Shown here piece after piece: positions 1 through 28,207 of a stretch of 41,324 nucleotides of DNA; positions within the stretch are counted from its first letter, which is position 1; each line of letters begins with the position of its first letter. Origin of the DNA: a virus; IMG/VR virus record IMGVR_UViG_3300044955_000119, positions 1 through 41,324 of that record. One strand, given 5' to 3'. The position numbers and the translations under genes were made by a program. The notes below the pieces were generated by a model, which saw only the letters and a list, made by a program, of their open reading frames with translations, made no database searches and was not told where the DNA came from.

Positions 1-341
1 GGTGTAATATCAACCACATTATCTTTCTGGGATTGTTGTTGTAACATTCTTTGCAGATCAGTCGTAGATCCTACGAATAGATTATTAGTAGTCTGACTGA
101 CTGCTTTTTTTTCTTCTTTGGCGTTGATATCTTTATGTTTCTTATTCAGATCCATAAGCTTATCGTTTACATCAGCAACGTTTTTAATTAGTCCTGATAG
201 TACTTCGAACGCCCGTGGGTGTTCGCTCGAGCGTGCGACCTCGATCATATCCTCAAGCGCATCGCGACCTTTATTAATTAGATCGAATAATGTTTCTCTT
301 GAATATTCGTAGTCGTTTTTAAAATTATCTGAATCATTCAT
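1..341 (-). CDS. gp16: Small terminase subunit gp16 (partial at the left edge)
   Basis: Small subunit of the T4-type terminase, which recognises concatemeric DNA and stimulates the large ATPase/nuclease gp17 at the portal. About 113 residues are visible and the 3' end lies outside the window. The N-terminal half is helical: 'SRETLFDLINKGRDALEDM', then 'SSEHPRAFEVLSGLIK', then a D/K-rich helix and 'NNLFVGSTTDLQRML'. This matches my recollection of T4 gp16, where a 'DSPRHMEVFATLMG' helix is followed by 'VFMGSPTEL'. The ATG at 341 overlaps the gp15 stop by 8 nt (ATGAATGA), so translation is probably coupled; no strong ribosome site is visible. The position downstream of gp13-gp14-gp15 is the T4 gene order. 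The family call comes from motif memory and synteny, without a search. Confidence 0.85.
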   Translation of the reverse strand, partial: MNDSDNFKNDYEYSRETLFDLINKGRDALEDMIEVARSSEHPRAFEVLSGLIKNVADVNDKLMDLNKKHKDINAKEEKKAVSQTTNNLFVGSTTDLQRMLQQQSQKDNVVDIT

Positions 342-1188
342 AATTTGGCCATCCGGATCTATCACTGTCACCATCTTCCATACTATATATCGTAGTGGTA
401 AATCCGTAGTCACTATCCGGTGACGCGTCTAATGGGTTCGGCTCTACGATAATTCTGGATGATGGACTATAAAGCGCAAAAGCCCCATCTGAATCAATCG
501 TGTTATATACTAACTTACCATCCGAATCTCTTACCGCACTCGATGTATAAAGATCTACAATAGATTTGCGAATAATAGTTGCTTCAGCAATTGGACCATA
601 GAAGTTAGCAGTCATAGTAAAATCTAATGTGTACTGAATAATACGTCTATTATCTAGAGCCCCTTCGTATGCATCTGAGTATGTAAGACCGTTTAGAGTA
701 ATAGGAACATCTTCTTTGATATCGTTATAATCGGAAAATGGTTTAATAGTTAATGTGTACTGTGGCGCAAAATACGGTAAAATTTGTTCTACAATCTGTA
801 GCGCATCATCTTGGGTCTTTGCATACACGTTGAGTTGGAACCCAATGATATAAGGGGTATATGTGTAAATTTTATTACGAATATTTCCAGTACCCCTGTT
901 AAGATTGTTAACTTTTTGTAGCTGACGCTGGGAATCATACTGGAAAGAAATAATTTCAAATGACATACGTGGTAGTTTAATAGCTACCTTTGTATCATTT
1001 ACTAGATCAGGGTTTTCACGAATACGGTCTAAAAAGCTTGAACTTGGAGCATATGACAAAGGCACTCTCGCTTGACTAATAACCTTATTCGTAGAATCCT
1101 TACGAACTACATAAATGTTATTAAAAAGCGAGCCAAACATAGCTACGCTTTTACGAATTCTTTCATGGTAAAAATGATTGCCTAACAT
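334..1188 (-). CDS. gp15: Tail completion and sheath stabilizer protein gp15
   Basis: Forms the ring that caps the tail tube and sheath and lets the finished tail join the head. The 284 residues align by eye with T4 gp15: N-terminal 'NHFYHERIRKSVAMFGSLFN' resembles T4 'YNSSFRRYATLMGDLFSNI', 'RVPLSYAP' resembles 'RVPITYAS', and the central 'DDALQIVEQILPYFAPQYT' is almost the same as T4 'DDMFQIVEQILPYFQPHF'. The later 'DNRRIIQYTLDFTMTANFYGP' matches the region before the T4 C-terminus. At 284 residues it is somewhat longer than T4 gp15, with an acidic D/S-rich tail after about residue 215. The start overlaps the gp14 stop by one base and the end overlaps the gp16 start, consistent with one neck-gene operon. 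Confidence 0.92.
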   Translation of the reverse strand: MLGNHFYHERIRKSVAMFGSLFNNIYVVRKDSTNKVISQARVPLSYAPSSSFLDRIRENPDLVNDTKVAIKLPRMSFEIISFQYDSQRQLQKVNNLNRGTGNIRNKIYTYTPYIIGFQLNVYAKTQDDALQIVEQILPYFAPQYTLTIKPFSDYNDIKEDVPITLNGLTYSDAYEGALDNRRIIQYTLDFTMTANFYGPIAEATIIRKSIVDLYTSSAVRDSDGKLVYNTIDSDGAFALYSPSSRIIVEPNPLDASPDSDYGFTTTIYSMEDGDSDRSGWPNYE

Positions 1189-2066
1189 TACTGTGGATCT
1201 CCGAATGGATTACTTTCACTAAAGTCTAAGAATCCTAAATCTGTCTGAGTTGTGTCGAAATAGTCATTTTTCTCATTTTCAGACAATTGATTATCCTCAG
1301 ATACACTAACCACTGTCACCGTATTCGTACCATTTGTAATAGTTAAATTTGGGGTCCATTCGTGATATAGTCCATCATCTGCACCCGATTGAACTACGCC
1401 TAAGACCTTAGTAGGTTCATCCCAAGACGAAACTTCGCCGGTCATAATAACACCTGAAGAAAATGTCTGTGTAACTACATCACCAGCTATAAATCCAGAT
1501 CCTGCACTATCGACAGTTAACTGATATTCATAGGCGTATCTTTGTTCGATATCCTGGATAGCTTCAATAGTAGTATCAAAGTCTTCGTCGCTATATTCAA
1601 ATAGTTCACAACGTAATTTATAGGTTGGTAAATTACTTAACTGGTAAAACGGCTGTTCGTGTTCTACGGCCATAATCTGAAACATAGAATTGGATAATGG
1701 CAAATAGATAATGTCACCTTCAAGCGGACGAATGCCCTGGATCGTATTATCTTGTTTCGAAACCGTTTGGTTCCAGCGTCTACGTGATACAATAAAGGTA
1801 GCTTGGTCGCGAATTTCTACGCCGAACTTTGTAAATAAATCACCTTCACCATCGAAGCCTTCTGTATTTTCGATGTACATTTCAACCTTATAGGCTGCAC
1901 TGAATCTCGATGGAACGTCTTCTCCTAAAATTTTATCTTCATTTACTATTTCTCTCGGAAGATAATAAACATCTTGACCATAGATCTTAAGAGATTCTAT
2001 GATTATGTCTTCATAAAGATTTTGTTCCGATCTAACCTTCTGGCTAAAATATACATTTGTTGCCAT
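1188..2066 (-). CDS. gp14: Neck protein gp14
   Basis: Head-completion/neck protein that works with gp13 to close the portal after packaging and provide the tail docking site. The N-terminal part shows the T4 gp14 pattern: 'IIIESLKIYGQDVYYLPREIV' matches T4 '[21 protein letters not shown]', 'ILGEDVPSRFSAAYKVEMYI' matches '[20 protein letters not shown]', and 'GDIIYLPLSNSMFQIMAVEHEQPFYQL' matches '[27 protein letters not shown]'. The C-terminus ends in 'FSESNPFGDPQ', like the acidic T4 end. A middle insert (about residues 180-255), rich in T, V, G and S, looks like a small beta domain absent from T4 gp14 as I remember it. The start has AGGAT upstream and lies 3 nt after gp13. Confidence 0.92.
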   Translation of the reverse strand: MATNVYFSQKVRSEQNLYEDIIIESLKIYGQDVYYLPREIVNEDKILGEDVPSRFSAAYKVEMYIENTEGFDGEGDLFTKFGVEIRDQATFIVSRRRWNQTVSKQDNTIQGIRPLEGDIIYLPLSNSMFQIMAVEHEQPFYQLSNLPTYKLRCELFEYSDEDFDTTIEAIQDIEQRYAYEYQLTVDSAGSGFIAGDVVTQTFSSGVIMTGEVSSWDEPTKVLGVVQSGADDGLYHEWTPNLTITNGTNTVTVVSVSEDNQLSENEKNDYFDTTQTDLGFLDFSESNPFGDPQ

Positions 2067-2069
2067 GTT

Positions 2070-2825
2070 TTATCCTACGAAGAAGTCTGCAGGCATTTCA
2101 AAGTCCAGACGAATCTTCTCCCTTAAGCGCTCGATTTCATTTGTTGCATCATCATAAATTTGTCTACCGTTAAGAGTTACACCACCAGGTAATTGCATAC
2201 CTTCAAACTTGATTAAGTTTGCACCCCATTGCTGCTTGATCAATGCAGTAGTATATTCTTTTAACCAAAGATCATTCCATACTTTTGTATGAGTAGAACT
2301 ATCTACTGTCTTATATGCCTCATAAACAATATACTCGCCAGCTTTTACATCTTGGTCAGCAAAGTCCCCGTGGACATACAGACGATTCATATGACGTGAA
2401 TACGTTACTTGTGGATATCCATTTAGCTTCATATCCAGCATAGACAGATATTGATTCATTTGCTCATAGTATGCGAGATCCCCAGCAAAGTTTTGCAAAT
2501 CAGCAATGTCATTTAACATCATCTGGTATTTTATATCAAAGAAGTTAACAGAGTTATTAAACGATGAAGAAATGTAAAACACCCTTGTTACGTTTAACGT
2601 GTCTGCAGTAACTTCAATATACTCACGATCTACATCTGTCTGTGTTACTAGATGCGACACATATGTTCTATATGTCGCATCTGAGTGATATTCTTGCCAA
2701 TACTGTAGGGCTTCATCCACTCTATCTTCTAGCTGATCTGGATCGACATTTATTTCAATGACCGGATCCCCTAGCCTTCTTAAAGAATAGTCAATAAGAC
2801 CTTGTCGCGTAGATGGATTTGCCAT
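2070..2825 (-). CDS. gp13: Neck protein gp13
   Basis: Head-completion/neck protein that binds the portal-proximal side of the neck and partners gp14. It is 251 residues, shorter than T4 gp13 (about 309). Conserved parts are the N-terminal 'LIDYSLRRLGDPVIEINVDPDQLEDRVDEAL' region (T4 '[28 protein letters not shown]'), the 'ALQYWQEYHSD' helix, and the C-terminal 'LPGGVTLNGRQIYDDA' followed by 'NEIERLREKI' (T4 'LPGGVTIDGQRLIEEA'). A central loop of T4 is shortened, which explains the length. The ATG at 2825 follows AGGAATAATAC, a fair ribosome site. gp13, gp14 and gp15 follow each other within a few bases, as in T4. Confidence 0.92.
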   Translation of the reverse strand: MANPSTRQGLIDYSLRRLGDPVIEINVDPDQLEDRVDEALQYWQEYHSDATYRTYVSHLVTQTDVDREYIEVTADTLNVTRVFYISSSFNNSVNFFDIKYQMMLNDIADLQNFAGDLAYYEQMNQYLSMLDMKLNGYPQVTYSRHMNRLYVHGDFADQDVKAGEYIVYEAYKTVDSSTHTKVWNDLWLKEYTTALIKQQWGANLIKFEGMQLPGGVTLNGRQIYDDATNEIERLREKIRLDFEMPADFFVG

Positions 2826-2837
2826 GTATTATTCCTA

Positions 2838-3035
2838 TTATGATGAGGGACTACGAATTGTTTTCAGCGTAGTCCCAGCTGAGTTTTTTATCAATAGGGT
2901 AGTAGTTCCGCTAAAATCAGAAGAAGTAACAGATCCGCTTTCAAGCTTATCATTGTTAAGATTAGTGAAATTGGTGTCGACTTCTGTATTAGTTAAAGGC
3001 GAGCCTTTTACCGATCTTAATGTTATAGTTGCCAT
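2838..3035 (-). CDS. Miniature fibre-like structural protein (65 aa)
   Basis: A 65-residue protein with two recognisable ends and almost no middle. The N-terminus, 'LRSVKGSPLTNTEVDTNF', is a module I associate with the start of long fibre or appendage proteins in marine T4-like phages. The C-terminus, 'LLIKNSAGTTLKTI', resembles the end of the 308-residue fibre protein at 16048-16974 ('LVIYNSTGTPLKTL'). It looks like a fibre reduced to its attachment and tail modules. A GAGGA ribosome site precedes the ATG at 3035, supporting real expression. It lies between gp13 and the 152-residue appendage protein. Function is inferred: virion-associated, possibly a small adaptor or a deletion remnant. Confidence 0.6.
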   Translation of the reverse strand: MATITLRSVKGSPLTNTEVDTNFTNLNNDKLESGSVTSSDFSGTTTLLIKNSAGTTLKTIRSPSS

Positions 3036-3078
3036 AATAGTATCCTCGTCTAAAAATTATAATAATCGAGAACTACTA

Positions 3079-3537
3079 TTATGGAGCTGCGATTGTAACG
3101 GTCCAAGTGATGGTTACAGTATCATCATCGCCTTTGTTAACTGCTGCAAATGTTGTACGGCAAAGCATATCACCAGCGGTTGAGGCGTTAAAAATACCAG
3201 CTTCAACAAGTGCACCGGAATGGGTTGAAGCGCCTGAAGGGAATGTCGCAACATATTCAATAGCGTTTGCTGTAACAGTAGTACTGTCTAAGCTAACACG
3301 TGTACCAAGCTGTGATACCAGTGCGGTTTGACCTGCTGCTGCTGCAGTGCTGCTAGTACCAACGGCCATATGTGTCATGGCGGCTTTAGTAGGGGTGCCT
3401 TTCATACGATCGGCAATAACATTTAGACCAGCAGTTACCACTAGGTTTTTTTCATGGCGTTCATCTTTAACGTTACCGTTTTGATCACGGACAACGATTT
3501 TTAATTCGCCGGTTGTTTTTAGGGTTTCACGAATCAT
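3079..3537 (-). CDS. Putative tail-appendage structural protein (152 aa)
   Basis: No enzyme signature. The protein starts with an amphipathic stretch ('TGELKIVVRDQNGNVKDER') followed by 'NLVVTAGLNVIADRM', then 'MTHMAVGTSSTAA' and several beta-prone segments ending in 'VTITWTVTIAAP'. This layout resembles short phage fibre or decoration proteins that begin with a 'G.V.....N.VT..GL..IA' motif. AAGGAG lies just upstream of the ATG at 3537, one of the strongest ribosome sites in the window, and a perfect TATAAATA late promoter lies at 3585-3578, so high late expression is likely. This fits a virion component made in many copies. The exact role (fibre, head decoration or whisker) cannot be read from sequence. 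Confidence 0.6.
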   Translation of the reverse strand: MIRETLKTTGELKIVVRDQNGNVKDERHEKNLVVTAGLNVIADRMKGTPTKAAMTHMAVGTSSTAAAAGQTALVSQLGTRVSLDSTTVTANAIEYVATFPSGASTHSGALVEAGIFNASTAGDMLCRTTFAAVNKGDDDTVTITWTVTIAAP

Positions 3538-3577
3538 TTTGGGGTTCTCCTTAACGTGAATTAATGATTATTCTATC

Positions 3578-3585
3578 TATTTATA
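3578..3585 (-). promoter_or_regulatory. T4-type late promoter (TATAAATA)
   Basis: The minus strand reads TATAAATA here, an exact match to the T4 late promoter -10 element used by the gp55/gp33/gp45-modified RNA polymerase. It lies about 40 nt upstream of the start at 3537 and just before the stop of the giant repeat gene. It would let the appendage and neck genes 3537 to 1 be transcribed independently of the long gene upstream. Confidence 0.75.
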
Positions 3586-3588
3586 ATA

Positions 3589-6500
3589 TTAAAAAGCTGT
3601 AGATTCAAGAGCATATGTAAATTCTACATAATCCTCAGCGAAATAGCTTTGTTGATATATTACGCCAGAATCTCCAGCTTCAACCGTATCAGACGTATTT
3701 TTATCTATATCTAAATTAGTCTGATCATTTGTATTGATTTGTTCATTTTGTGCTTTACTGATATTAAAGTCACTGGTTTCACTTACATTTGCAGTATTTG
3801 TAAATGGTAAGTAATATCCATTGCCTGTAGGTGATCTGTATTCGTAAGCTGTATAACCAATAGAATATGTATCGCTGTCGAAGTAATTTTGTTTATAAAT
3901 CAGATATGGATCTGAAACATTCGCTGTATCAATAAAGTCTTTAAGGGTTTGTACTAAAAGTTCTATTGTCTCGGTAACTTCAGAAGTATCTGTAAGGCTT
4001 CTGTTATATCCTACGGACTTTGTCAGAGATTCTGTAGCATTCGCTTGATCAGATCTTGCTTTGTTAAAGTCAATTACATTATTTTCAGTTGCATTCGCTT
4101 GATCTGCTCTTACTTTGTTAAAGTTAAGATCGCTTGTTTCAGTTGCGTTTGCTTGATCAGATCTTACTTTATTAAAGTCGATTATATTATTTTCAGAGGC
4201 AGATGTTGTATCACTTAATATTTTACCGAGTTCGATTGTAGTATTTTCAGACGCAGATGCCGTATCAACTCTCACTTTATCAAATACAAATGATGATACT
4301 TCTGACGTTTCAGTTGTATCGCTAAATGATCTATTGTAGTCAGTAGCACTTGTTAATAATTCAGATGCGTTTATTATATCACCTTCAACCATTCCGAATG
4401 TAAATGTAGATCCATCGGTCACACCTAATAGGTCTTTACCCAGAACTGTATCAGTAAATGATCTATTATAGTCAGTAACACTTGTTAGTAATTCAGCAAC
4501 CTCAGCTGCATCCGAAAGAACCTTATTAGATGTTATTTGACTGTTCTCAGAGGCAGATGTTGTATCACTTAAAACTTTAGCTAATGTAAATAGAAGACTT
4601 TCACTACCATTTGCTGCATCCGAAAGAACCTTATTAGATGTTATTTGACTGTTCTCAGAGGCAGATGTTGTATCACTTAAAACTTTAGCTAATGTAAATA
4701 GAAGACTTTCACTACCATTCGCCAACTCCGTAAACGGCAAGCCGAAGATATTGACTGTAGGAGATCTATAGTTAAATACGACATATGATTGGCCATTAAC
4801 GATGTAGTCGGAGTCAAAATAGTTCTGACTAAAGAGTTCGTATGTTTGATCTGCTTCAAGATTCTCTGTGAATTCTCTATTAATAACTAGAAGAAGCTCT
4901 AGAAGATCTGTTGTATTAGCTTGATCTGTGAAACTTCTATTATAATCAATGACCCTGGTCAGTGATTCGGTAGCATTAACTTGATCACCTTCAACCATTC
5001 CAAAGGTAAAAGTAGAATTATCCGACGTTTCAGTTGTATCGGTAAATGTTCTATTGTAGTCAACGATCTTTGTTAGTAATTCGCTAGCATTAACTTGATC
5101 TGATTCAGTCATACCAAATAAGAATGCAGAATTATCTGGCGTCTCGGTAGTATCAGTAATCGATCTATTGTAGTCAACAATTCTGGTAAATGATTCAGAT
5201 GCATTTGTTATATCACCTTCAACCATTCCGAATGTAAATGCAGAATTATCCGACGTTTCAGTTGTATCGGTAAATGTTCTATTGTAGTCAACGATCTTTG
5301 TTAGTGATTCGCTAGCATTAACTTGATCACCTTCAACCATTCCGAATGTAAATGCAGAATTATCCGACGTTTCAGTTGTATCGGTAAATGTTCTATTGTA
5401 GTCAACAATTCTGGTAAATGATTCAGATGCATTTGTTATATCACCTTCAACCATTCCAAAGGTAAAAGTAGAACCATCAGTTACACCTAAAAGATCTTTT
5501 CCTAATACGGTATCAGTCAAGACCTTACTGAGAACAAAAGCAAGATTTGTATCAACAGTGTTAATTTGATCTGTCGGATTTTTACCAAAAATAATTGTAC
5601 TAGTGTCTGTAGACTGGACTGAATCAAATCTATCTTTATTAAAGGTCCAGATCGAGTTTTCCGATACGGACATAGATTCCGTAAATGGAAGACCATAGAT
5701 ATCGAACAAGTCAGATCTATAGTTAAATACCACATAAGCTTGACCATTGACAATATAATCAGAGTCAAAGTAGTTCTGACTAAATAACTCATAGACTTGT
5801 GACGCTTCAAGATTTTCTGTTAAATTTCTATTGATAACAAGAAGAAACTCGACTAAATCTGAAGTATTCACTTGATTAGTAAAGCTTCTGTTATATGCTA
5901 CTTCTTTTAATATAGATTCGCTAACATCGACTTGATCTAATTCAGTCATACCAAAGACAAATGTTGGACCATCTGTAATTAATGCTGAATCGCTTAATAC
6001 CTTGTCGACAATAGCGGATAGAGATTCAGTTACATTAGTCTGATCTTCTCTATTTTTATTAAATGACCATATACTATTTTCACCAATACTAGTGATATCT
6101 GAAAATTCTCTATTATATTCCACAATTCTCGTAAGGAGATCTGACGCATTTGCCGCATCGCCTTCGACCATTCCGAACGAGAATGTAGAACCATCAGTCA
6201 CACCCAGTAGGTCTTTTGCTAGTGTGGTATCACTGAATGCTCTATTAAATTGAGTTATTTTGGTAAATGATTCTGTAGCATTTACAACATCGGAATTAAA
6301 TTTATTAAATGTTATCCGACTATTTTCTGAGACCGTAGAAGTATCATTTAAAACTTTAGCTAATGTAAATAGAAGACTTTCACTGCCATTCACTAACTCT
6401 GTAAATGGTAGACCGAAAATATTAATAGTCGGGGATCTATAGTTAAATACCACATAAGCTTGGCCGTTAACTATATAATCGGAATCAAAGTAGTTTTGAC

Positions 6501-9500
6501 TAAATAACTCGTAAGTTTGTGAAGCTTCAAGAAACTCGGTGAATTCTCTAATAAAGCTAACAAGAGTTGAAATTGACTCTGTAACATTTGCTTGATCAGT
6601 GAAACTTCTATTATAGTCAATGATTCTGCTAAAGACTTCGCTGACATTTGTTACATCACCTTTAACCATTCCAAACGAGAATGTAGAATTATCTGGTGTC
6701 TCGGTAGTATCAGTAATCGATCTATTGTAGTCGACGATTCGAGTAAATTGTTCAGTTGCATTTATTATATCTGCAAGAGATTTATCGAATTCTATTACTT
6801 TAGTTTCAATAACCGAAGAGCTATCAGTAAAGTTTCGGTTGAAACCTACCACTCTAGTAAACGTCTCACTGGCGTTAGCTATATCACCTTCAACCATTCC
6901 AAACGAGAATGTAGAACCATCAGTCACACCCAGTAGGTCTTTTGCTAAAGCAGTATCAGTAAATACCTTATAAAATCCAGATGCTATATTAAGTAATTCT
7001 ATAATATCTACTGCATCAGAGAGGGATTTATTAAATGCTATTTCGCTATTTTCTGAAGCAGTCAAAGATTCACTTAAGAATTTACCAGACGCTAGTAGAA
7101 GATTTTCGTTAACATTCAATAACTCTGTAAATGGTAAACCGAAGATATTAACCAATGGCGATCTGTAGTTAAATACAACGTATGATTGACCATTAACGAT
7201 ATAATCAGAGTCGAAGTAATTTTGGCTGAACAGTTCATATGTTTGTGGTATATTAACAGTTTCAGCAAAATCTCTAACAAATGTAACAATTCTAGTAAAT
7301 ATATCTACTGCGTCTGCATAATCAATAAAGGCTCTTCTTGCATCCAGTATAGTAGATATTGATTCGCTTGCATTTGCTATATCGTTTTTAACCATTCCAA
7401 AGGTAAACGTTGCACCATCAGTTACATCTAAAAGGTCTCCTCCTAAAGCGGTATCACTCAGAGTTCTATAATAACTTACAATCCTATTAAATTGTTCGGT
7501 CGCATTTACTATATCTGCAAGAGATTTATCGAATTCTATTACTTTAGTTTCGGTGGATAAAGCACTATCACTAAATAAACGGTTAAAGCTAACCGTACGA
7601 CCGAATACCTCGGCAGCGTTAACTGTATCACCCTCGGCCATTCCGAAGGTAAACGTTGCACCGTCAGTCACACCCAACAGATCTTTCGCTAGTGTGGTAT
7701 CGGTTAAAGATCTATAATAACTTACAATCCTATTAAATTGCTCTGTTGCATTTATTATATCTGCAAGAGATTTATCGAATTCTATTACTTTAGTTTCAAT
7801 AACTGAGGAACTGTCGTTAATATTTCGATTAAATCCAACTACTCGAGTAAACGTCTCACTGGCGTTAGCTATATCACCCTCGGCCATTCCGAAGGTAAAC
7901 GTTGCACCGTCAGTCACACCCAACAGATCTTTCGCTAGTGTGGTATCAGCTAATACTTTTGCAATTGCGAATTGTAAATCATTATCAATTGCATCTGTTA
8001 AATCAGATATTATTTTATTAGTTACAAAAGATTGAATATCGTCCGGATTAACAACATCTTGAATAAGTTTACCAAAACTTAAATAAGACACATCGCTGGC
8101 ATCCACCGGCAATTCTGTAAAGGGTAATCCAAAAATATTAATAGTCGGAGATCTATAGTTAAATACCACATAAGCTTGACCGTTAACAATATAGTCCGAA
8201 TCAAAATAAGTTTGCTGATAAAGGAAATAATCATCAGGTATATTTGATAGATCTGTTAATACTTTATTCGAATTAAAGTTTAAATTTTCAACCGAAGTGA
8301 TGATATCACCTTCAGACATTCCGAAGGTAAACGTTGCACCGTCAGTCACACCCAGCAGGTCTTTTGCTAGTGTGGTATCACTTAGAACTTTTTCTACCGC
8401 AAGCGATAAATCCTCGCTTGCGTTTACTATATCATCAATAAATCTTCTAAGATCAATGAATATTGATATTATTTCAGATATATTTGCTATATCAGATAGA
8501 TTTTTACCAGTATTGATCACACTATTTTCATTGACATTCGAAGATTCGGAAATATTACCCATATCGAATGAAAGTGAAATTGCTTCAATAATTTGACTGA
8601 CATCGCTGTATACTTTTTGTATGTCAAATGTATTACTATCAGACGATAGCGAAGTATCTAAAATAGATTTATTAATTTGGTAATTAAGCGATTCGCTTGA
8701 AGTAATAGATTCAGTAAAATCTCTGAATATTTGTAAAACCAGTCGAATTGATTCGCTTATATTAACAAGACTGGCTTCAACCATATTAAACTGGAATGTA
8801 GATCCATCGTTAATACCAACAAGATCTAAAGCATTCGAGACGTCCGATAGTACTTTTTGCAGAGAATAAGTTAAAATCTCATCATTTAATTCTGTAGTAT
8901 CTGAAAGCCCTTTATTAGAGTTAAGGGATTGATTATCACTAACATTAGAAATATCAAATTGGGGTTTATTCAATAACCATGCTGAATTCTCTAAAGCTTG
9001 CGCAGAATCGAATTGGGGTTTATTGTATAACCATGTTAGATTTTCATTTACATTAGATACATCAAATTCGCCCTTATTAAATGACCATATCGCATTTTCT
9101 ATTATGTTGAATAGATCTGATAGACCTTTATCTGTTATAAAGGTTGGATCTGCGTCAGATACTGATGCTGAATCTAAAGAAAGAGATTTATTAAATGTTA
9201 ATACAGCATTTTCATTCGCTTGGGCTAAGTCGAACAATGTCTTTAAAAGATTAAATGTAAAATCTTCTAAAGACTGAGCTTGATCATCTAATGATTTTAA
9301 TGTATTAAAAATTAAATTGTCGTCAAAAGTTTGCGCGGAATCAGAATAATAAGCATATACCCCAAGTACAACTAAAATTTGTTCCAGTATAACTGCTCGA
9401 TCTGATTCAGCCATCCCGAATGAAAAGGTAGACCCATCAGTAATACCTAATAAATCTTTTCCTAATACGGTATCGCTTAAAACCTTATCTACAATATAAT

Positions 9501-10248
9501 TAAGTGCCACAGAAGCATTAGCAGAGTCAGATGCACCTTTGTCGAATAATAAAGTACTACTATCAGTTACAGGGCCAGTTAGATCAGCTGGTAATTTGCC
9601 ATATTGGAACGTAAAGCTTTCATCTGCGCTAAATGTATCTTGAAGCGGCTTGCTATATTGGAATGTGAAGTTTTCAGAAGCAAGAGAAAGGTCCTGTCTT
9701 ACCGAACCAATCTGGAAGAATATATCACCATCACCGGCAATTGGGAAATCTTTAATACCTTTATTCGTGTCGAAAAAGGCAATATCATCTATACCAGCTG
9801 GATCGATAAAGTCCGATAAAGTTCTGCGTAATTGATAAGAAAATAATTCAAATGCATTTATGTCATCGGTTAATGGAATTCCCGGTAATGTTCTTAAACG
9901 TCCGAGAATATGTTTAGCAGAATCAATTTCAAATTCTCGAATAAACTGCCCGCTACCGACTAAAGAAAATGTAGGAGAATACGATACATTTATAGAACCT
10001 ACAATAGGTTTATCGATTTTATTCTCAAGGTGTTTACTTACTAATGGTAAATTAGAGTCACGATAAGATTTACTGAAAACACTAAATAAACTTTTTATAG
10101 CCTTACCAGTTAATAAAAAGTTTTTAGTATTTTCAGTATTTGTTGAACTAACGACAGGTCTATTAAATTTATTTTCTGATAAACCAGATACTACAGGAGA
10201 TCCAGAATCTCTATATGATTTACCAGATACACTAAAAGGGGGTTTCAT
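3589..10248 (-). CDS. Giant repeat structural protein (2219 aa), probable fibre or whisker
   Basis: A 2219-residue protein made almost entirely of degenerate 18-20-residue units, on the order of 100 copies. The unit pattern is E-N/S-x(5-6)-F/Y-N/D-K/R-x(3)-D-x(3)-N/A, for example 'ENSAWLLNKPQFDISNVS' and 'DNSAFTFGMVEGDITNAS'. A longer block, 'KDLLGVTDG' followed by 'TFTFGM', recurs many times. A second module, with 'NYFDSDYIVNG', 'YVVFNYRS' and 'FGLPFTE', occurs five times, with a divergent sixth copy and a truncated C-terminal copy. I saw no cysteine, signal peptide, membrane segment or enzyme motif. The start overlaps the 110-residue gene by one base (TAATG). It lies upstream of gp13, where T4 has gp10-gp11-gp12-wac, so a long fibre, whisker or adhesin is the best inference. 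I do not recognise a named family. Confidence 0.7.
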   Translation of the reverse strand: MKPPFSVSGKSYRDSGSPVVSGLSENKFNRPVVSSTNTENTKNFLLTGKAIKSLFSVFSKSYRDSNLPLVSKHLENKIDKPIVGSINVSYSPTFSLVGSGQFIREFEIDSAKHILGRLRTLPGIPLTDDINAFELFSYQLRRTLSDFIDPAGIDDIAFFDTNKGIKDFPIAGDGDIFFQIGSVRQDLSLASENFTFQYSKPLQDTFSADESFTFQYGKLPADLTGPVTDSSTLLFDKGASDSANASVALNYIVDKVLSDTVLGKDLLGITDGSTFSFGMAESDRAVILEQILVVLGVYAYYSDSAQTFDDNLIFNTLKSLDDQAQSLEDFTFNLLKTLFDLAQANENAVLTFNKSLSLDSASVSDADPTFITDKGLSDLFNIIENAIWSFNKGEFDVSNVNENLTWLYNKPQFDSAQALENSAWLLNKPQFDISNVSDNQSLNSNKGLSDTTELNDEILTYSLQKVLSDVSNALDLVGINDGSTFQFNMVEASLVNISESIRLVLQIFRDFTESITSSESLNYQINKSILDTSLSSDSNTFDIQKVYSDVSQIIEAISLSFDMGNISESSNVNENSVINTGKNLSDIANISEIISIFIDLRRFIDDIVNASEDLSLAVEKVLSDTTLAKDLLGVTDGATFTFGMSEGDIITSVENLNFNSNKVLTDLSNIPDDYFLYQQTYFDSDYIVNGQAYVVFNYRSPTINIFGLPFTELPVDASDVSYLSFGKLIQDVVNPDDIQSFVTNKIISDLTDAIDNDLQFAIAKVLADTTLAKDLLGVTDGATFTFGMAEGDIANASETFTRVVGFNRNINDSSSVIETKVIEFDKSLADIINATEQFNRIVSYYRSLTDTTLAKDLLGVTDGATFTFGMAEGDTVNAAEVFGRTVSFNRLFSDSALSTETKVIEFDKSLADIVNATEQFNRIVSYYRTLSDTALGGDLLDVTDGATFTFGMVKNDIANASESISTILDARRAFIDYADAVDIFTRIVTFVRDFAETVNIPQTYELFSQNYFDSDYIVNGQSYVVFNYRSPLVNIFGLPFTELLNVNENLLLASGKFLSESLTASENSEIAFNKSLSDAVDIIELLNIASGFYKVFTDTALAKDLLGVTDGSTFSFGMVEGDIANASETFTRVVGFNRNFTDSSSVIETKVIEFDKSLADIINATEQFTRIVDYNRSITDTTETPDNSTFSFGMVKGDVTNVSEVFSRIIDYNRSFTDQANVTESISTLVSFIREFTEFLEASQTYELFSQNYFDSDYIVNGQAYVVFNYRSPTINIFGLPFTELVNGSESLLFTLAKVLNDTSTVSENSRITFNKFNSDVVNATESFTKITQFNRAFSDTTLAKDLLGVTDGSTFSFGMVEGDAANASDLLTRIVEYNREFSDITSIGENSIWSFNKNREDQTNVTESLSAIVDKVLSDSALITDGPTFVFGMTELDQVDVSESILKEVAYNRSFTNQVNTSDLVEFLLVINRNLTENLEASQVYELFSQNYFDSDYIVNGQAYVVFNYRSDLFDIYGLPFTESMSVSENSIWTFNKDRFDSVQSTDTSTIIFGKNPTDQINTVDTNLAFVLSKVLTDTVLGKDLLGVTDGSTFTFGMVEGDITNASESFTRIVDYNRTFTDTTETSDNSAFTFGMVEGDQVNASESLTKIVDYNRTFTDTTETSDNSAFTFGMVEGDITNASESFTRIVDYNRSITDTTETPDNSAFLFGMTESDQVNASELLTKIVDYNRTFTDTTETSDNSTFTFGMVEGDQVNATESLTRVIDYNRSFTDQANTTDLLELLLVINREFTENLEADQTYELFSQNYFDSDYIVNGQSYVVFNYRSPTVNIFGLPFTELANGSESLLFTLAKVLSDTTSASENSQITSNKVLSDAANGSESLLFTLAKVLSDTTSASENSQITSNKVLSDAAEVAELLTSVTDYNRSFTDTVLGKDLLGVTDGSTFTFGMVEGDIINASELLTSATDYNRSFSDTTETSEVSSFVFDKVRVDTASASENTTIELGKILSDTTSASENNIIDFNKVRSDQANATETSDLNFNKVRADQANATENNVIDFNKARSDQANATESLTKSVGYNRSLTDTSEVTETIELLVQTLKDFIDTANVSDPYLIYKQNYFDSDTYSIGYTAYEYRSPTGNGYYLPFTNTANVSETSDFNISKAQNEQINTNDQTNLDIDKNTSDTVEAGDSGVIYQQSYFAEDYVEFTYALESTAF
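4505..4720 (-). repeat. 108-bp tandem duplication inside the giant repeat gene
   Basis: Two adjacent copies, 4505-4612 and 4613-4720, are identical except for their last base (T versus C). The period of 108 bp equals 36 codons, i.e. two 18-residue protein units, so the frame is kept. Near-identity at the DNA level points to a very recent duplication. Confidence 0.95.
5212..5406 (-). repeat. Paired 81-bp identical blocks with a 114-bp period
   Basis: Positions 5212-5292 and 5326-5406 are identical, offset by 114 bp (38 codons, one 18- plus one 20-residue unit). A related, slightly diverged copy lies around 4980-5075. The blocks encode the 'NSAFTFGMVEGD' unit followed by the 'DYNRTFTDTTETS' unit. 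Confidence 0.9.
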
Positions 10249-10580
10249 TATACACGGGTAACAGCGGGTGTAACAGTCACCATACCTTCTATTACTCTGT
10301 ATCTTTCTCCACCAGAATCTTCAATATAGACGTCATAAACGTATCTTCCAGCTGTAATAGCAGCTGTTTCTTCATCAGTCATGGTTAATAGTATTCTACC
10401 GGCAGAAGGATTTTCAGTCGTAAATGTCCCAGCTACCGAAGAAGATCTATATGTTTTTCTGATCTGACTTGTAATAGTAACCCCAGTAAGATTATATGGA
10501 CCACCCGAGGTAGTTTTTAAATCTACTTGATATCTAAATGTAGATCCCTGATCAATTTCTAGTTCTTCGTACAGAGCCAT
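10248..10580 (-). CDS. Small beta-rich structural protein coupled to the giant repeat gene (110 aa)
   Basis: A 110-residue protein with an immunoglobulin-like layout: 'DQGSTFRYQVDLKTTSGGPYNLTG', then 'VTITSQIRKTY', then 'GRYVYDVYIEDSGGERYRVIEGMVTV'. This resembles the small beta-sandwich found at the N-terminus of BppU-like baseplate upper proteins and in stand-alone phage structural proteins ('D.G.....L....G...DLTG.TV...I'). GGGGTG precedes the ATG at 10580. Its stop overlaps the start of the giant repeat gene by one base, which suggests coupled translation and a shared job, such as an adaptor or assembly partner for the large protein. Family placement is by pattern only. Confidence 0.6.
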   Translation of the reverse strand: MALYEELEIDQGSTFRYQVDLKTTSGGPYNLTGVTITSQIRKTYRSSSVAGTFTTENPSAGRILLTMTDEETAAITAGRYVYDVYIEDSGGERYRVIEGMVTVTPAVTRV

Positions 10581-10700: not shown

Positions 10701-11066
10701 TCACACCTTCTTCCGACAAAATCTTTTACATTCAGGCAAGGCAGTATCTTCAGAATCCCATGATTCAGGTAAAGTTTTAGTAAACCATTCGTTATTTAGT
10801 ATTTCTTCCAGTGGGGTATGATTAACATTATACTGTTTTTTATTTTTATAATATGCACCCCATACTGGTGCCTTTTCCTTTACGTAATGATCCCAATCCC
10901 ATCCTACTATTTTATACTTGTCAGTATTTTGCATATCCCTTTCATATGAAAGATTTGCTAGATAACAACACGGCATTACTTGACCATCTGGATTAATTAA
11001 AACCCTATTAAATTTCATCCATTGACACTCAATACCTAACTTATTTGCATTTAATTGTTTCATCAT
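10701..11066 (-). CDS. SPASM/twitch iron-sulfur domain protein (C-terminal half of a radical SAM enzyme)
   Basis: 121 residues resembling the auxiliary Fe-S cluster domain normally fused behind a radical SAM core. Cysteines sit at C14, C33, C34, C113 and C117 in the usual arrangement: 'GIECQWMKFNRVLINPDG', then 'VMPCCYL', and a final 'ECKRFC'. The gene overlaps the radical SAM gene by 26 nt in the +1 frame. AAAAGGA lies 4 nt before the tandem ATG ATG at 11066, so reinitiation is possible. A TGA lies four codons upstream in this frame, so the protein cannot begin much earlier. Either the enzyme is truly made as two chains, or a frameshift has broken a formerly single gene. The domain would accept electrons or anchor a peptide or other substrate. 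Confidence 0.75.
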   Translation of the reverse strand: MMKQLNANKLGIECQWMKFNRVLINPDGQVMPCCYLANLSYERDMQNTDKYKIVGWDWDHYVKEKAPVWGAYYKNKKQYNVNHTPLEEILNNEWFTKTLPESWDSEDTALPECKRFCRKKV

Positions 11067-16974: not shown

Positions 16975-17177
16975 TATAGTTTCTCTATGATCTGGGTTAG
17001 CATGGATTTGATATCATTAACATCTTGCTTCAATTGCTCAATCTCCTGCTTTTGCCTGTTACGATTCTCTTTTGCTTTTTTAGCTGTATTAACTGCAGAA
17101 GTATTTATATTAATTACCGCACCAGTTTCCGGATCTCTTCCAAATCCCGGTGCGTTATCAGATCTTATCACTTTCAT
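16974..17177 (-). CDS. Small coiled-coil phage protein (67 aa)
   Basis: A 67-residue protein. The N-terminal 20 residues, 'IRSDNAPGFGRDPETGAVIN', form a short 'PG..RD..TGA..N' motif that I recall from small conserved proteins of marine T4-like phages. The rest is a heptad-like helix rich in K, E and Q ('KKAKENRNRQKQEIEQL', then 'DVNDIKSMLTQIIEKL'), which predicts a coiled coil. The start overlaps the DUF4815 gene stop and the end overlaps the fibre gene start, both by one base (TAATG), so it is coupled to both. An oligomerising adaptor or assembly helper is a reasonable guess; no function is shown directly. Confidence 0.6.
   Translation of the reverse strand: MKVIRSDNAPGFGRDPETGAVININTSAVNTAKKAKENRNRQKQEIEQLKQDVNDIKSMLTQIIEKL
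17102..17109 (-). promoter_or_regulatory. Possible internal late promoter (TATAAATA)
   Basis: An exact TATAAATA on the minus strand inside the 67-residue gene, 128 nt before the fibre gene start at 16974. In this AT-rich DNA an 8-mer inside coding sequence may be chance, so confidence is low. Confidence 0.3.
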
Positions 17178-20100
17178 TATACCGCCAGCGCAATTGTCCG
17201 TATATCTTTAAAGGTCGGCACTTTTGCTTGGTTCTGAGAAACCATAACAATTTTAATCTGCATCTGGTTAAATGCATCAAGCGTACCAGTGTTACCACCA
17301 ATCAGATATTCGTACTCTCTAAATATTTCAGGATTCTCATCACTGATTAATCCAGACGATGGGGAAACTGCTGTCCATGAAATATCTGCAATATTATCAT
17401 CACCAGAAGCTACACGATAGTATACGTCGAATGAAGCATCGTTCGGTTTATTTGCAGTAACGAATAGCTTCATACCTACTGCATCTTGTGCTAAAGTAAT
17501 TACTTTACTAATATGTTTAGCAACTGATGAGCCACCTTTTGGATTCGTTTCCGAAACGTAATTAATAGGAACGTTAAATCCAGCTGCTGGAGTTTCAGAT
17601 GGTTTATCGATAATATTATTAACTGCAATAACTGTAGCTCTTTGCATATCAACAACCGGTGATACGTTCTGGTCAAACGTTTTCATGGATAATTTCAAGT
17701 TAAAGCTCTTATTACCACTTAGATATGCAGTTTCATTATCCGCATTTGCAATCATTCTTGGATTATCAAATACGATGTTTTTACCTAATGAGACGCCTCT
17801 GTATGTAGTAGATAGCTGATAAGCTGTTTCTGTACCAGCAATTGATTGACCACTGGTAGTTGCAATTGACGGAACAATCTGGGCAGCCGGCGGAATTAAT
17901 GTGGACAAGTTAATATTTGCAATATCCATTAGAATATTCTGATCTGCTAAGATTGCACTACCACCACCGATCTCGGCAGATGTAGAAGCAGAATCAGCTT
18001 CAAATTGATAACCAGTTGCATCTACTACCGTAATAGTTCTAGCACCGTTAATAGAAGATGCACTAATACCTGCCAGATCGATTGCACCCGAAATATTAAC
18101 TGTATCACCAACTGTAAAACCATGACTTGGCTGATATACCGTGATAGTAGCATCGGCCGAATCGACTGACATAGGATCTTCAGTTAATAGTTTTTGTGGT
18201 ACATTCGTATTAGTTAATGTAGCAACCCCTTGTGTATTACTAAATTTTGCTACGTGGATCTGCATTTTCAGATCTTCCCACTGAACAGGTGTCCAAGTAC
18301 TGTTATTTTGGGATTTGAATAGAGACCCTAGGAATGGCTGTTTAACAATTTTTCTATCTGTTGTACCAAGTTCAAAATCGCCTACTCTTGAAATATAAAC
18401 TTTATAAGTAGGAACGCTAGAAATTAGAACAAAGCAATATTCTTTACCTGGAGCAAGATAAACGGGTTCGTCAAACTCGAAAGTTGTTGCTACACTTGCA
18501 TCTGTTGATGTAGTTATATCGGTAGGGAATTTAAATACTGTAGAACCCCCAATAATCTCAGGCGATGGGAATCCGTTATTCATAGCACGAATTTGGCCCC
18601 ATACTGGAGCAGTACCTGGATCTTTTGCAGCAAAATAGATATCTACCTTAGTAGCAAATACCCCGTTTTGTTCAGAAACTCTAAACGATTGCGCTAATGG
18701 ATCATCATTACCTTCACCCATACATGCAGGACCTGGAACCGGATTAACAAAAGCTACTTCACCAGTTACAGTATTTCTCCACCAATTAGCTGGATCGGTT
18801 GATTCTGCAATCCATTCTCCGGTAGGTGCTCTTGGAGTAGGTATAACAGTATCATTCGTACCCACACCATTATCGGTATCAATAGAAGTACCTGAAACGC
18901 TTGTAGTATTAGTTACTCTTGAACTACTGGTTTCAGAAGTACTAGTTGAAGTAGCAATTTCTAAGATTCTTGTACTAAGAACATCTTTTTGTCTTGTTTC
19001 CAAAACACCTTGCGAAGTGAATTTCTGTATACCATAAGATGTACTAAATTCCACGTTATTAGGATCTGTAGCATCGATCAATGTAAAAATTCGCGTGCCA
19101 GCATTAAATCTAAGATTAGCTGTAGAAGGAATAAAGAATGAACCTTCAATATCACCATTTGCGTCGGCAATAAGTGGTGAAGATCCTTCTGGATGACCTA
19201 AAGCGGTATTATTAACGTTGCCGACAGTTTGTGGATCATCAGAGGTTCTTACGAAAGTCTCAGATCTACACCAATCAGAAACATCAACTTTATCGAAGAA
19301 AGGAAATACCTCAGTGTCTGGTCTAAATCCTCTACCTTGGAAATAGATTTTTCTAGATCTCATAAATGGTATAGTGGCTGTCTGTAGAAGCCTATCCCCG
19401 ACAACTTCTCTGATAGTCGTTTCGCCTACGACGCGGTTTAAACCCGTTTGAGTAGAAGTCCATGATGTTCTAACAGTTTCTGTCCCACCAAAGCCATAAT
19501 CGCCTGTAGTTTCTCTAACGCTTGTGCTAGACCCGCTGCTAGAACTGAGTGTAATGGTATTAGTAGTTGATCCAACACTAAGTTGATCAATAGGTGTTCC
19601 ACCCCAATTCCACTCATGATCATTCCAAAGATTTGCACCGCTTGTGTCGAGCTGGGTTTGAGTTACTACTGAATCAGGCTGATATGATTTTTCAATCCAG
19701 TTATCACTTGCCGGAGAAAGAGTAATATTACCGTTAAATCTTGTTTGCCAGAATGGTAAAACATTTTCTGTATCACTTGCCATATTCTGATTGATATATG
19801 ATCTATGAGTATATTTCAGATAAATGTTATCGCCTCTTTTGACCACATTCGAATTTAAAACATTATCAGAATCATACATCAAGTTGATTGCATCAGTATT
19901 TCCGCGCGGTCTCATATATTTTTCCACGGGATCAATTGCTGCATTATAGTCAGGATCACTTACATCAGAAAAGAAGTGATTTGTAAATGTATCAACAAAG
20001 AAGCCCGATTTGGTCCTATTATTACCATCGGAATCCAAAACTGCTAGGTTTGCTGTATCAAGCTCCAGAAGGGTAAGAGAGGTTACTTCTTCTAGAGAAT

Positions 20101-22504
20101 TCAATCTGTTTTCTAATCGACCGATATCACCCATTGTGTAATGCTTATGGTCAATCTGAATTGACTTTAAATCACTTGAGTTTAATACATAAGGATTATG
20201 TTGAATCCTATACAATTCCATACTATTGTCTGGGTGATTAGGGAAAAATGGGGTTAATGATTCTTCGCCCTTAACTACAGAAACCACAGAGTTTGTATTA
20301 ATGATCACTTTGTCGTTTCTAGCATTATAATATTCCACATCAGCGCGGATCGTATCATTCGGTTGTGGAAGTTCATTAATAATTGCACCAGATGCGAATG
20401 TGCCAGATGAATTTACTACAGGACGGAAATCCAGAACATTTCTTAATGGGATAGAAGTTCCATTAGCAAGAGTATGTGTAGGAATATCTTCATAATCTAC
20501 CTGCCCAGAATAAGAGTTAACTGCAAAGAAATCACCAGAAACGCCATGAGAGAAATAGTCGTATTTAGCAACCACGTCATATGTTGGGACAGTTTGACCG
20601 GATTTAAGAACTAAGCGTCCTAAGCCATAATAGTTATCTCTTTGACCATTGTCAAGAATAAATCTCGATCTTACACTATTACCACCTACAGTATCTTTCG
20701 TTACTGAAGTAAAATTATATACATCGGACTTTGACAAGTATGCAAAGATTGTTCCGTTGCCATCAGAATCCCAAGCCCCAGGAATAATGGTGTCTTCTTG
20801 ACCAGTGTTCAGTGTCTTAGAACGAATAGCCCCTGCAGACTTATCGACATACGTCATAACTTCAATACTAGAAGCTGCCCCTAATCCCGAAATGGTTGCA
20901 CTAGTTGTGCCTACTCCAGTAATAGTAGCTCCTGTGAATACGTCATTACCATCATCACAGATAATCCAATCATTGGTATTAGCAAATGTTTCACCTGAAG
21001 CTGAAAGGTTAAGCGATGCACTACCAGCAGTAACAGCTGCTGTAAATCTTCTCTGGGTTGTGAGTGCAATATCATCAATATTAGCCGGGCGAATTTTAGG
21101 TAATGGTAATAAAAGAGAATTTACTTTAGGATCTTTTAAAACGGCTTGACCGAGTTCAAGAACTAAGTTCATATAGTCTAAAGTACCAGTACCAAGACTT
21201 CTTACACTTCTAAAGTTTTGACCAGAGTTCATAGAAATCTGGAACAAATGAATTCTGTAATAGCCAGCAGTGTTATCTTCGTCGATAGCTCTTACTCTAG
21301 CAGTACCGATAACCGTTCCCGTACCACCAATTGTATTGTAAAGGTTAATCTGCGAAAAATCGTGGATATCTGGTAAACCCTTACTTGTAGTACCATTAAC
21401 CAGAACATAATTACCAAGAGTAAAGGCCGTTACTTCGTTATTAGTTGTCGTTGTACTTCTAGGTTTATTAACAGTCATTCTATGTTGGGTATTAAGTTCA
21501 ACCCTATAACCATCAACATATGCTACACCTGGCTGTAAAATAACGTCTAATTTACTTGTATCTGTAGCGTTATCTCTATAAGTTACTTTAAAAGGTTTTA
21601 CGATATAATCGCCAGATTCTTCAGAAGTTCTTTTAGCTAAAAGATCTCTTATGATATCATAATTTTCTTCATCAGCCGGTCTTTTAACGTCGTAGATCTG
21701 TACCCCGTTTAAAAGACCTGCTTTTACAAAATTTTCAGATGGGTCTACATCCGATTCTAATGTTAGTTGTAATGCAATTTTATATCTGTCAGCACCAGGT
21801 GACGAAGTATTCGGTAAAGGTCCAGAATTATCATAGAGACTTTCATCGTCATTCGCTGTTACAATAGACTCTACGACTTTAAATCCGAAGTTATCTCTAT
21901 TAGTGGTAAAATTCTCATATTTTTTTGCCAGAATAGTCTGAGCTTCTGTGAAAACCATTCTGCCAGATACGAAATATATGCCACTATTGTTAGAAAGAAA
22001 AACACCTTCACCCAGCGCCGGATTTGAAGTAGTATTAGTTGTCTGAATAGTTAAAGTAGTAGACCCATTCGAAATATTTTCACCAGGTCTAAAACGTACA
22101 TCTGAAGCAGAAACATTGGTATATCTTACATAAATGGTACCTGGATCTCCATTTCCACTCGGCTCAATATAAGTAACTACGCCGCTGACGCCACTGGTTG
22201 CACCGGTAAATGTTGTATTGATTAGGGTAGATGTATTACTAGGAAGCGCATTTGTGGTTTCATTTAATTTTGCAAATTGTGAGGATCTTGAGCTAAATCC
22301 GCCGCCTTGTACAATAGCACCTTCTACAAATAAGTTATCTGCAATGCGAGTTAATTCTCTTTGAGTAATCGTCTGAAGCTGAGTTAATTCTCTAGCTTGA
22401 ACCGCTCTGCCATTATTAAATAGTATCCTATGAAAACCAGCACTGTCAGAGAAATCGTCTCTGTAGGTTTCTAGGAAAGTATTTTGAATTACTTGATCTA
22501 CCAT
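17177..22504 (-). CDS. Large DUF4815-type baseplate/tail structural protein (1775 aa)
   Basis: The opening, 'DSAGFHRILFNNGRAVQARE' followed by 'LTQLQTITQRELTRIADNLF', is the hallmark of the DUF4815 proteins of marine T4-like phages, large virion proteins encoded in the baseplate region. The N-terminal ~600 residues follow that family ('QPGVAYVDGYRVE', 'RTSEESGDYIVKPF'). The middle includes repeated beta segments and long S/T-rich linkers (about 1195-1230). The C-terminal third has 'AQSFRVSEQNGVFATKVDIYF', a jelly-roll-like motif, and Big-type strands. No catalytic motif was seen. It lies between gp8 and the fibre genes, where T4 has gp9-gp10-gp11, so a peripheral baseplate or fibre-attachment role is inferred. 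GGATT precedes the start at 22504. Confidence 0.78.
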   Translation of the reverse strand: MVDQVIQNTFLETYRDDFSDSAGFHRILFNNGRAVQARELTQLQTITQRELTRIADNLFVEGAIVQGGGFSSRSSQFAKLNETTNALPSNTSTLINTTFTGATSGVSGVVTYIEPSGNGDPGTIYVRYTNVSASDVRFRPGENISNGSTTLTIQTTNTTSNPALGEGVFLSNNSGIYFVSGRMVFTEAQTILAKKYENFTTNRDNFGFKVVESIVTANDDESLYDNSGPLPNTSSPGADRYKIALQLTLESDVDPSENFVKAGLLNGVQIYDVKRPADEENYDIIRDLLAKRTSEESGDYIVKPFKVTYRDNATDTSKLDVILQPGVAYVDGYRVELNTQHRMTVNKPRSTTTTNNEVTAFTLGNYVLVNGTTSKGLPDIHDFSQINLYNTIGGTGTVIGTARVRAIDEDNTAGYYRIHLFQISMNSGQNFRSVRSLGTGTLDYMNLVLELGQAVLKDPKVNSLLLPLPKIRPANIDDIALTTQRRFTAAVTAGSASLNLSASGETFANTNDWIICDDGNDVFTGATITGVGTTSATISGLGAASSIEVMTYVDKSAGAIRSKTLNTGQEDTIIPGAWDSDGNGTIFAYLSKSDVYNFTSVTKDTVGGNSVRSRFILDNGQRDNYYGLGRLVLKSGQTVPTYDVVAKYDYFSHGVSGDFFAVNSYSGQVDYEDIPTHTLANGTSIPLRNVLDFRPVVNSSGTFASGAIINELPQPNDTIRADVEYYNARNDKVIINTNSVVSVVKGEESLTPFFPNHPDNSMELYRIQHNPYVLNSSDLKSIQIDHKHYTMGDIGRLENRLNSLEEVTSLTLLELDTANLAVLDSDGNNRTKSGFFVDTFTNHFFSDVSDPDYNAAIDPVEKYMRPRGNTDAINLMYDSDNVLNSNVVKRGDNIYLKYTHRSYINQNMASDTENVLPFWQTRFNGNITLSPASDNWIEKSYQPDSVVTQTQLDTSGANLWNDHEWNWGGTPIDQLSVGSTTNTITLSSSSGSSTSVRETTGDYGFGGTETVRTSWTSTQTGLNRVVGETTIREVVGDRLLQTATIPFMRSRKIYFQGRGFRPDTEVFPFFDKVDVSDWCRSETFVRTSDDPQTVGNVNNTALGHPEGSSPLIADANGDIEGSFFIPSTANLRFNAGTRIFTLIDATDPNNVEFSTSYGIQKFTSQGVLETRQKDVLSTRILEIATSTSTSETSSSRVTNTTSVSGTSIDTDNGVGTNDTVIPTPRAPTGEWIAESTDPANWWRNTVTGEVAFVNPVPGPACMGEGNDDPLAQSFRVSEQNGVFATKVDIYFAAKDPGTAPVWGQIRAMNNGFPSPEIIGGSTVFKFPTDITTSTDASVATTFEFDEPVYLAPGKEYCFVLISSVPTYKVYISRVGDFELGTTDRKIVKQPFLGSLFKSQNNSTWTPVQWEDLKMQIHVAKFSNTQGVATLTNTNVPQKLLTEDPMSVDSADATITVYQPSHGFTVGDTVNISGAIDLAGISASSINGARTITVVDATGYQFEADSASTSAEIGGGSAILADQNILMDIANINLSTLIPPAAQIVPSIATTSGQSIAGTETAYQLSTTYRGVSLGKNIVFDNPRMIANADNETAYLSGNKSFNLKLSMKTFDQNVSPVVDMQRATVIAVNNIIDKPSETPAAGFNVPINYVSETNPKGGSSVAKHISKVITLAQDAVGMKLFVTANKPNDASFDVYYRVASGDDNIADISWTAVSPSSGLISDENPEIFREYEYLIGGNTGTLDAFNQMQIKIVMVSQNQAKVPTFKDIRTIALAV

Positions 22505-23875: not shown

Positions 23876-23887
23876 ATTTCTATCCTA

Positions 23888-24889: not shown

Positions 24890-24913
24890 GATTAATTCCC
24901 GTTGAGTTTAATC

Positions 24914-24921
24914 TATTTATA
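24914..24921 (-). promoter_or_regulatory. T4-type late promoter (TATAAATA)
   Basis: Exact TATAAATA on the minus strand in the 39-nt gap between the gp7-like gene and the 333-residue fibre-like gene, 25 nt before the start at 24889. The spacing suits the T4 late pattern. It probably drives the fibre-like gene, gp8 and genes beyond. Confidence 0.75.
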
Positions 24922-24928
24922 TAAAAAA

Positions 24929-27741: not shown

Positions 27742-27742
27742 A

Positions 27743-28186: not shown

Positions 28187-28207
28187 CTTTTTCCCTGGGG
28201 TTTAGTA

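Follow-up and report, generated by a model that had tools for sequence, protein, structure and literature searches.

Genes at the locus and their genomic setting

The window, that is, the whole 41,324-nt stretch of DNA analysed here, covers part of the genome of a marine T4-like virus, and PHROG profiles identified in it core genes of the gp15, gp14 and gp13 types at 334-2825 and baseplate genes at 22523-37280. The P0001 gene is located between a VrlC homologue (P0002) and the gp13/gp14 genes, flanked by a gene of an anchor family and by a fibre gene. The main features, all on the minus strand, are:

334..1188, minus: gp15-type tail sheath stabilizer (PHROG profile)
1188..2066, minus: gp14-type head closure protein Hc2 (profile matches)
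2070..2825, minus: gp13-type connector, first core gene past the cassette (PHROG 211)
2838..3035, minus: 65-aa KGSPLTN mini-fibre, whose N-terminal fibre motif is followed almost immediately by a C-terminal end ...LLIKNSAGTTLKTIRSPSS
3079..3537, minus: P0004 ("P4"), 152-aa partner protein (PHROG 5417; PHROG 4176, tail fiber), linked to the tip by gene neighbourhood
3589..10248, minus: P0001, 2219-aa repeat protein with an array of about 103 units, six tip-like modules in its interior and a tip at the C-terminus
10248..10580, minus: P0003, 110-aa anchor-type protein (PHROG 1084/3304, "L-shaped tail fiber protein assembly")
17177..22504, minus: P0002, VrlC homologue, border of the host recognition cluster (comparison with HTVC008M)

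P0002 shares 31% identity with the VrlC protein of HTVC008M over the main aligned segment. In pelagimyophages, the VrlC-gp14 interval is a hypervariable host recognition cluster containing tail fibres, glycosyltransferases and radical-SAM genes (PMC7029224), and the window shares its contents, with a glycosyltransferase match, radical-SAM and SPASM matches, and P0001. P0001 sits in this host recognition cluster, where the arm proposed below would have a role in host recognition.

Other genes of the region deserve mention. SPASM-domain and radical-SAM genes adjoin the cassette at 10701-11829, and similar cysteine-motif neighbours are found at the same place in L006, a syntenic T4-like locus, which suggests that these genes travel with the host recognition cluster. 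P0006 (16048-16974) is fibre-like: a 180-bp repeat is present in 2.6 copies, and the C-terminal end (LVIYNSTGTPLKTLYGAGS) is similar to the fibre ends of related viruses and to that of the 65-aa mini-fibre. Three other loci (L071, L073 and L083, ~1-6900) carry, upstream of gp13 and in the same region as the cassette of the window, five to six consecutive genes of ~340 aa with ~50-residue repeats (GYxSGG...NxIDKFPFSSDANATDVGDLTQAR). Additionally, a different giant repeat protein lies upstream of a P3-type gene in phage C48C1 (L088, 1-6961; hypothetical protein WJE88074.1), with YVGNYARxFVGDY repeats over at least 2,319 aa in that stretch.

Repeat units and tip-like modules of P0001

P0001 is encoded by a frame of 6,660 nt running from ATG to stop (coordinates 10248-3589), and the plus strand is crowded with stops across the same region. 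The sequence-only reading had described a single frame at this position, the lack of cysteine and about one hundred units of 18-20 residues. All three hold (0 Cys in 2,219 aa; ~103 units by tiling), but the coding strand is the minus one. The calculated mass is 245 kDa and the pI 4.1.

The units form seven runs with modules between them. P0001 contains the motif D-x5-[E/D] 96 times, whereas 500 residue shuffles gave 29.8±5.0 and at most 48. The distance from one occurrence to the next is most often 18 (39 times) or 20 residues (21 times). Autocorrelation peaks at lags 18, 20 and 38, being strongest at 18 and 38 because 18-residue units often alternate with 20-residue ones. The two unit types also differ in their endings (...K-x3 in the 18-residue type and ...Y/F-N-R-x-F-T in the 20-residue type). 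The repeat noticed earlier is thus real, and its formula, E-N-x(6)-F/N-K-x(3)-D-x(3)-N/A, is bettered by D-x5-E/D-x7-K-x3 for the 18-residue units and D-x5-E-x9-R-x3 for the 20-residue ones. The parts of the gene that stand out from the array, together with a pair of DNA repeats within it, are:

9922..10248, minus: N-terminal ~109 residues, outside the unit array (the unit tiling begins at residue 110)
8113..8232, minus: internal module 1, YFDSDYIVNG...LPFTE, residues 673-712, YFDSD at 681
7123..7242, minus: internal module 2, residues 1003-1042, YFDSD at 1011
6397..6516, minus: internal module 3, residues 1245-1284, YFDSD at 1253
5677..5796, minus: internal module 4, residues 1485-1524, YFDSD at 1493
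4726..4845, minus: internal module 5, residues 1802-1841, YFDSD at 1810
3796..3909, minus: internal module 6, divergent, residues 2114-2151, YFDSD at 2122
3592..3693, minus: C-terminal tip, the family's conserved end motif, residues 2186-2219, SDTVEAGDSGVIYQQSYFAEDYVEF... (tip profile and alignment)
4505..4719, minus: two identical 108-bp copies of two units each (DNA repeat analysis)

The N-terminal part is a candidate for attachment to P0003. The six copies of the YFDSDYIVNG module reported in the sequence-only reading were all located, and they cut the protein into seven blocks, at inter-module distances of 330, 242, 240, 317 and 312 residues. The end copy (YFAEDYVEF at residue 2202) is related to these YFDSD modules. 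The internal copies, which have 17 columns invariant across all six, consist of YFDSDYIVNG plus an extra YVVFNYRS...LPFTE part, and the terminal one is of the YFAEDYVG type. A profile of the tip found in relatives of P0001 (see below) recognised exactly seven sites in P0001, the C-terminus and the six modules; the C-terminal site was significant (conditional E 1.4e-6) and the internal ones scored weakly (conditional E 0.009-0.96), so that the latter are read as tips because of their position, their sequence resemblance and the significant terminal copy. Judged from these sequence features, the six modules appear to be copies of the C-terminal tip of the family, which bears out in part the earlier suggestion that they are joints.

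P0001 contains duplicated blocks: blocks 2-6 align with one another at 31-55% identity, and most blocks are about the size of a normal member of the arm family (median 303 aa). Furthermore, the gene contains DNA repeats 54-246 bp long whose identity reaches 100%, and the complete identity of the 108-bp pair indicates that duplication is, at least in part, recent, this pair being apparently a recent tandem duplication. The simplest history would be one in which whole tip-ended blocks were duplicated, in addition to single units. A second, internal tip was found in two relatives by profile and in 10 of 59 other loci by pattern, so this step has precedents, and seven sites are the extreme.

P0001 belongs to a widespread four-gene cassette

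Searches with the whole of P0001 gave no accepted match in Pfam and no match in PDB or, by tblastn, in phages, and a single weak match in PHROG (PHROG 16756, E 2e-5; a 58-aa family of unknown function). A peptide-pattern search of viral contigs returned the same virus only. FlgF/Flg_bbr hits in Pfam and NCBIfam were rejected as chance matches in repetitive sequence (scores of 13.3 against a cut-off of 23, and 31.7 against 242). The shorter relatives described next were also without a tblastn match in phages, as was the tip profile in PDB. The claim that P0001 has no recognisable relatives was nonetheless wrong, as gene-context and profile searches recovered dozens.

Using the neighbouring gp14 gene as bait we obtained L006, where counterparts of the two genes that flank P0001 lie on either side of a 537-aa protein built of P0001-type units. 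P0004 as bait led to 80 loci, one of them from the same virus, and in many of these the gene preceding P0004 was picked up by a profile of three-unit P0001 segments. Among 1,927 ORFs (all those of at least 100 aa from the P0004-bait loci and bacterial loci), the P0001 repeat profile gave 62 matches at E<=1e-5, every one of them directly upstream of P4, and ten column-permuted versions of the profile gave none. Some copies of the family are also found in bacterial genome contigs. The relatives share a C-terminal signature, YFAEDYVGxxRTF, and two of the 42 scanned also match a Pfam baseplate-wedge domain. Six proteins (L119, L123, L127, L129 and L130, ~993-1000 aa; L124, 660 aa) have 18-20-residue repeats and a tip-like end at their C-terminus, and N-terminal parts that look like baseplate or virion structural proteins.

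The cassette has a conserved order: an anchor of ~110 aa of the BppU_N/LtfC type, a repeat/tip protein (YFAEDYVG), P4 of ~150 aa and a KGSPLTN fibre. In loci fetched by the tip alone, which avoids the bias of the P4-fetched set, and with enough sequence, P4 was directly downstream in 51 of 54 and the ~110-aa anchor gene directly upstream in 56 of 57. An ORF starting with KGSPLTNxEVDxNFxNLN directly follows P4 in 95 of 101 cassette loci, including that of the window, and in three of them (L006, L018 and L094) it matches tail or tail-fibre PHROGs. The siphophages JWX and BcepGomr also encode a tip-ended protein (gp22 and gp17, respectively). Its gene follows that of the tape measure protein and precedes P4 and a tail fibre, with minor tail genes and J coming next. 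P4 has more than one type of partner, since in Limnohabitans, Polynucleobacter and other genome contigs (L196, L198, L200-L202, L206, L214, L216, L217, L220, L221, L223-L225, L227, L228 and L233) P4-type genes come after a different protein, mostly of ~1,170 aa, ending in GVCQT...RLF...RLY or KLY.

P0001 has the features of a cassette arm, namely 18/20-residue D-x5-[ED]-x7/9-[KR] units and a C-terminal tip of the YFAEDYVG type, with a P3-type gene directly upstream (P3 profile, E 6e-26) and P4 directly downstream (P4 profile, E 2e-70); both profiles contain the window's own sequences, and the PHROG matches of P0003 (PHROG 3304, E 7e-21) and P0004 are independent of them. No Pfam family matched P0003 itself, and within its anchor family, A6, 14 of the 42 members match BppU_N and six match LtfC. 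The A6 profile reached only E 0.1 with T5 p132.

P0001 is strongly expanded relative to its relatives. Arms at 65 cassette loci measure 103-549 aa (median 303), so P0001, with 2,219 aa and seven tip-like sites, is outside the usual range of 100-550 aa and one or two tips; arm length is a habit of the family and not its definition. With identical gene order, L006 combines an arm of 537 aa with a fibre of 531 aa, and this virus one of 2,219 aa with one of 65 aa. A general trade-off between both lengths is not supported, as no inverse relation was found across the 65 cassettes (rho 0.17, p 0.18). The mini-fibre, whose end LLIKNSAGTTLKTIRSPSS corresponds to that of the L006 fibre (531 aa), is the shortest complete KGSPLTN fibre found, and it need not be a defect since versions of 66-79 aa are common. 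The minus-strand RNA over its gene (2826-3078) folds better than dinucleotide shuffles (z -3.4), a signal that may be due to chance or coding constraint.

A model for P0001 and alternative readings

Taken together with homology and gene order, these data lead us to propose that P0001 is quite probably a long arm protein, which forms the shaft in a cassette for tail-fibre attachment. Its location in the virion, and on the tail in particular, is suggested by the anchor family, the gene order of JWX and BcepGomr and the baseplate-wedge matches. In this model P0003, as a member of a BppU_N/LtfC-type immunoglobulin-like family, would hold the N-terminus of P0001 at the tail or baseplate, a rod-like shaft would be built from the 18/20-residue units, and the YFAEDYVG tip and P0004 would form a distal joint receiving the KGSPLTN fibre. 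Duplication of tip-ended blocks and tandem duplication of units would have produced the seven blocks of one chain, while only the two conserved ends of the terminal fibre would remain (65 aa).

The role of the internal modules could be a minor one. They may be mere scars or spacers left by the duplication of a tip-ended gene, the long arm then working like a short one with a longer reach, a reading to which we give a reasonable chance, somewhat below even. Block lengths of 240-330 residues are close to those of normal members, the blocks align end to end, the DNA repeats, up to 100% identical, point to recent duplication and other loci with two tip-like motifs exist, all of which would be expected from this history; on the other hand, the invariant columns of the six modules suggest selection or recent copying and not decay.

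Alternatively, each of the seven tip-like sites might bind P0004 and a mini-fibre, P0001 being a rail that carries up to seven short fibres per arm. We consider this unlikely, as the internal YFDSDYIVNG differs from the terminal YFAEDYVG and carries the extra YVVFNYRS...LPFTE part, and the tip-P4 contact itself is deduced from co-occurrence. It agrees, nevertheless, with the combination in P0001 of seven tip-like sites with the shortest complete fibre, with the nearly constant neighbourhood of tip and P4 and with the good conservation of the internal modules among themselves. The evolutionary extension of this idea, that a long arm with many mini-fibres replaced a single long terminal fibre and that the number of docks is adjustable by block duplication, is slightly more doubtful still.

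The shape attributed to the arm in our model could also be questioned, since P0001 might be a flexible, largely unfolded tether or spring instead of a folded rod, as its acidic, S/T/D/N-rich composition and monomer predictions of low confidence might suggest. AlphaFold2 monomers of the C-terminal 263 residues and of a 315-aa relative were of low confidence (pLDDT 41 and 36, pTM 0.14 and 0.18, respectively), a result that does not establish disorder and lends no support to a solenoid. Poor monomer models are also obtained for fibre proteins whose chains fold only as trimers, so results of this kind would be expected from an obligate trimer, but also from a shallow alignment or a flexible chain. 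Hydrophobicity periodicity did not separate strand from helix. Hydrophobic positions are, however, kept in each unit (11 and 13 in the 18-residue type; 9, 12, 13 and 19 in the 20-residue type), and the mean hydropathy, 0.481 against a charge-hydropathy boundary of 0.444, falls within the range of folded proteins. Both features speak mildly against disorder, and we regard the tether as improbable. For the rod of our preferred model, assuming a rise per unit of between 0.5 nm (monomeric solenoid) and ~1.3 nm (triple beta-spiral), the 103 units would add up to a length of roughly 50-135 nm, as simple arithmetic on these assumed rises.

Finally, a false giant gene assembled from repeats of several related viruses, as the metagenomic origin of the record and its 54-246 bp repeats of up to 100% identity could suggest, is very improbable given the single intact frame, a divergence between blocks of about 45-70%, which is more than a spurious copying of most of the gene would leave, and a second viral contig (L003) that matches the window base for base over 18,248 bases, the whole P0001 gene among them, which argues against a simple assembly error even if both contigs may share the source sample.

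Relation to known systems and significance

One of the closest known parallels to the arrangement proposed here is found in T5 and DT57C, where LtfC/p132, with a fold resembling BppU-N, has been shown by cryo-EM to anchor the lateral fibres, forming a dodecamer around the tail tip that holds the N-terminal strands of the fibre (PMC10038345; PMC10713586). The cassette would resemble that system in having a candidate gene of the LtfC/BppU_N group beside a presumed long-fibre gene in a tail context; unlike it, P0001 matches neither Ltf/LtfA nor other known fibre proteins (phage tblastn, PDB). Members of the anchor family also match the N-terminal domain of BppU-type (baseplate upper) proteins, to which TP901-1 BppU belongs. 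In BppU, the anchor domain and the fibre part are one chain, whereas the cassette anchor is encoded by a separate gene. The P4 family is weakly similar to the fibre I protein gp80 of Ralstonia phage GP4 and to the HFTV1 baseplate hub (PF23140, E 0.006, below the cut-off; PDB 9h4p, E 3e-6), a likeness that concerns P0004 only and not P0001.

In T4, the gp10-gp12 and whisker genes precede gp13-gp14-gp15, and the sequence-only reading had accordingly placed a fibre there. The repetitive, presumed virion fibre in a tail-fibre region stands, in view of the VrlC-gp13/gp14 location, and P0001 is like gp10-gp12, the whiskers and gp34-gp37 in its place before gp13-gp14-gp15 and as a presumed fibre. Identity with gp10-gp12 or whiskers has no support from sequence, as Pfam, PHROG, PDB and phage tblastn searches found no sequence similarity of P0001 to any of these T4 proteins.

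The nearest relatives of P0001 are uncharacterised cassette arms (L006, L148, L104, JWX gp22 and BcepGomr gp17), with which it shares the units and/or the tip and its neighbours, and from which it differs in its length and seven tip-like sites. P0001 is, therefore, not an orphan but a giant member of a widespread, so far unnamed and uncharacterised fibre cassette. What this analysis establishes most firmly is the family with its four signatures and the outlying size of P0001, and the binding of several mini-fibres along one arm is the most interesting possibility. The cassette can be recognised by four short signatures (the anchor, the D-x5-E unit, the YFAEDYVG tip and KGSPLTN), giving a context-based function to numerous "hypothetical" genes in phages of environmental origin, and it makes testable both the binding of tip to P4 and the number of blocks as what sets arm length or valency. 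P0001 probably forms an unusually long host-recognition arm, roughly seven end-to-end copies of a protein of ~300 residues, and provides a clear natural case of fibre growth through duplication of whole tip-ended modules.
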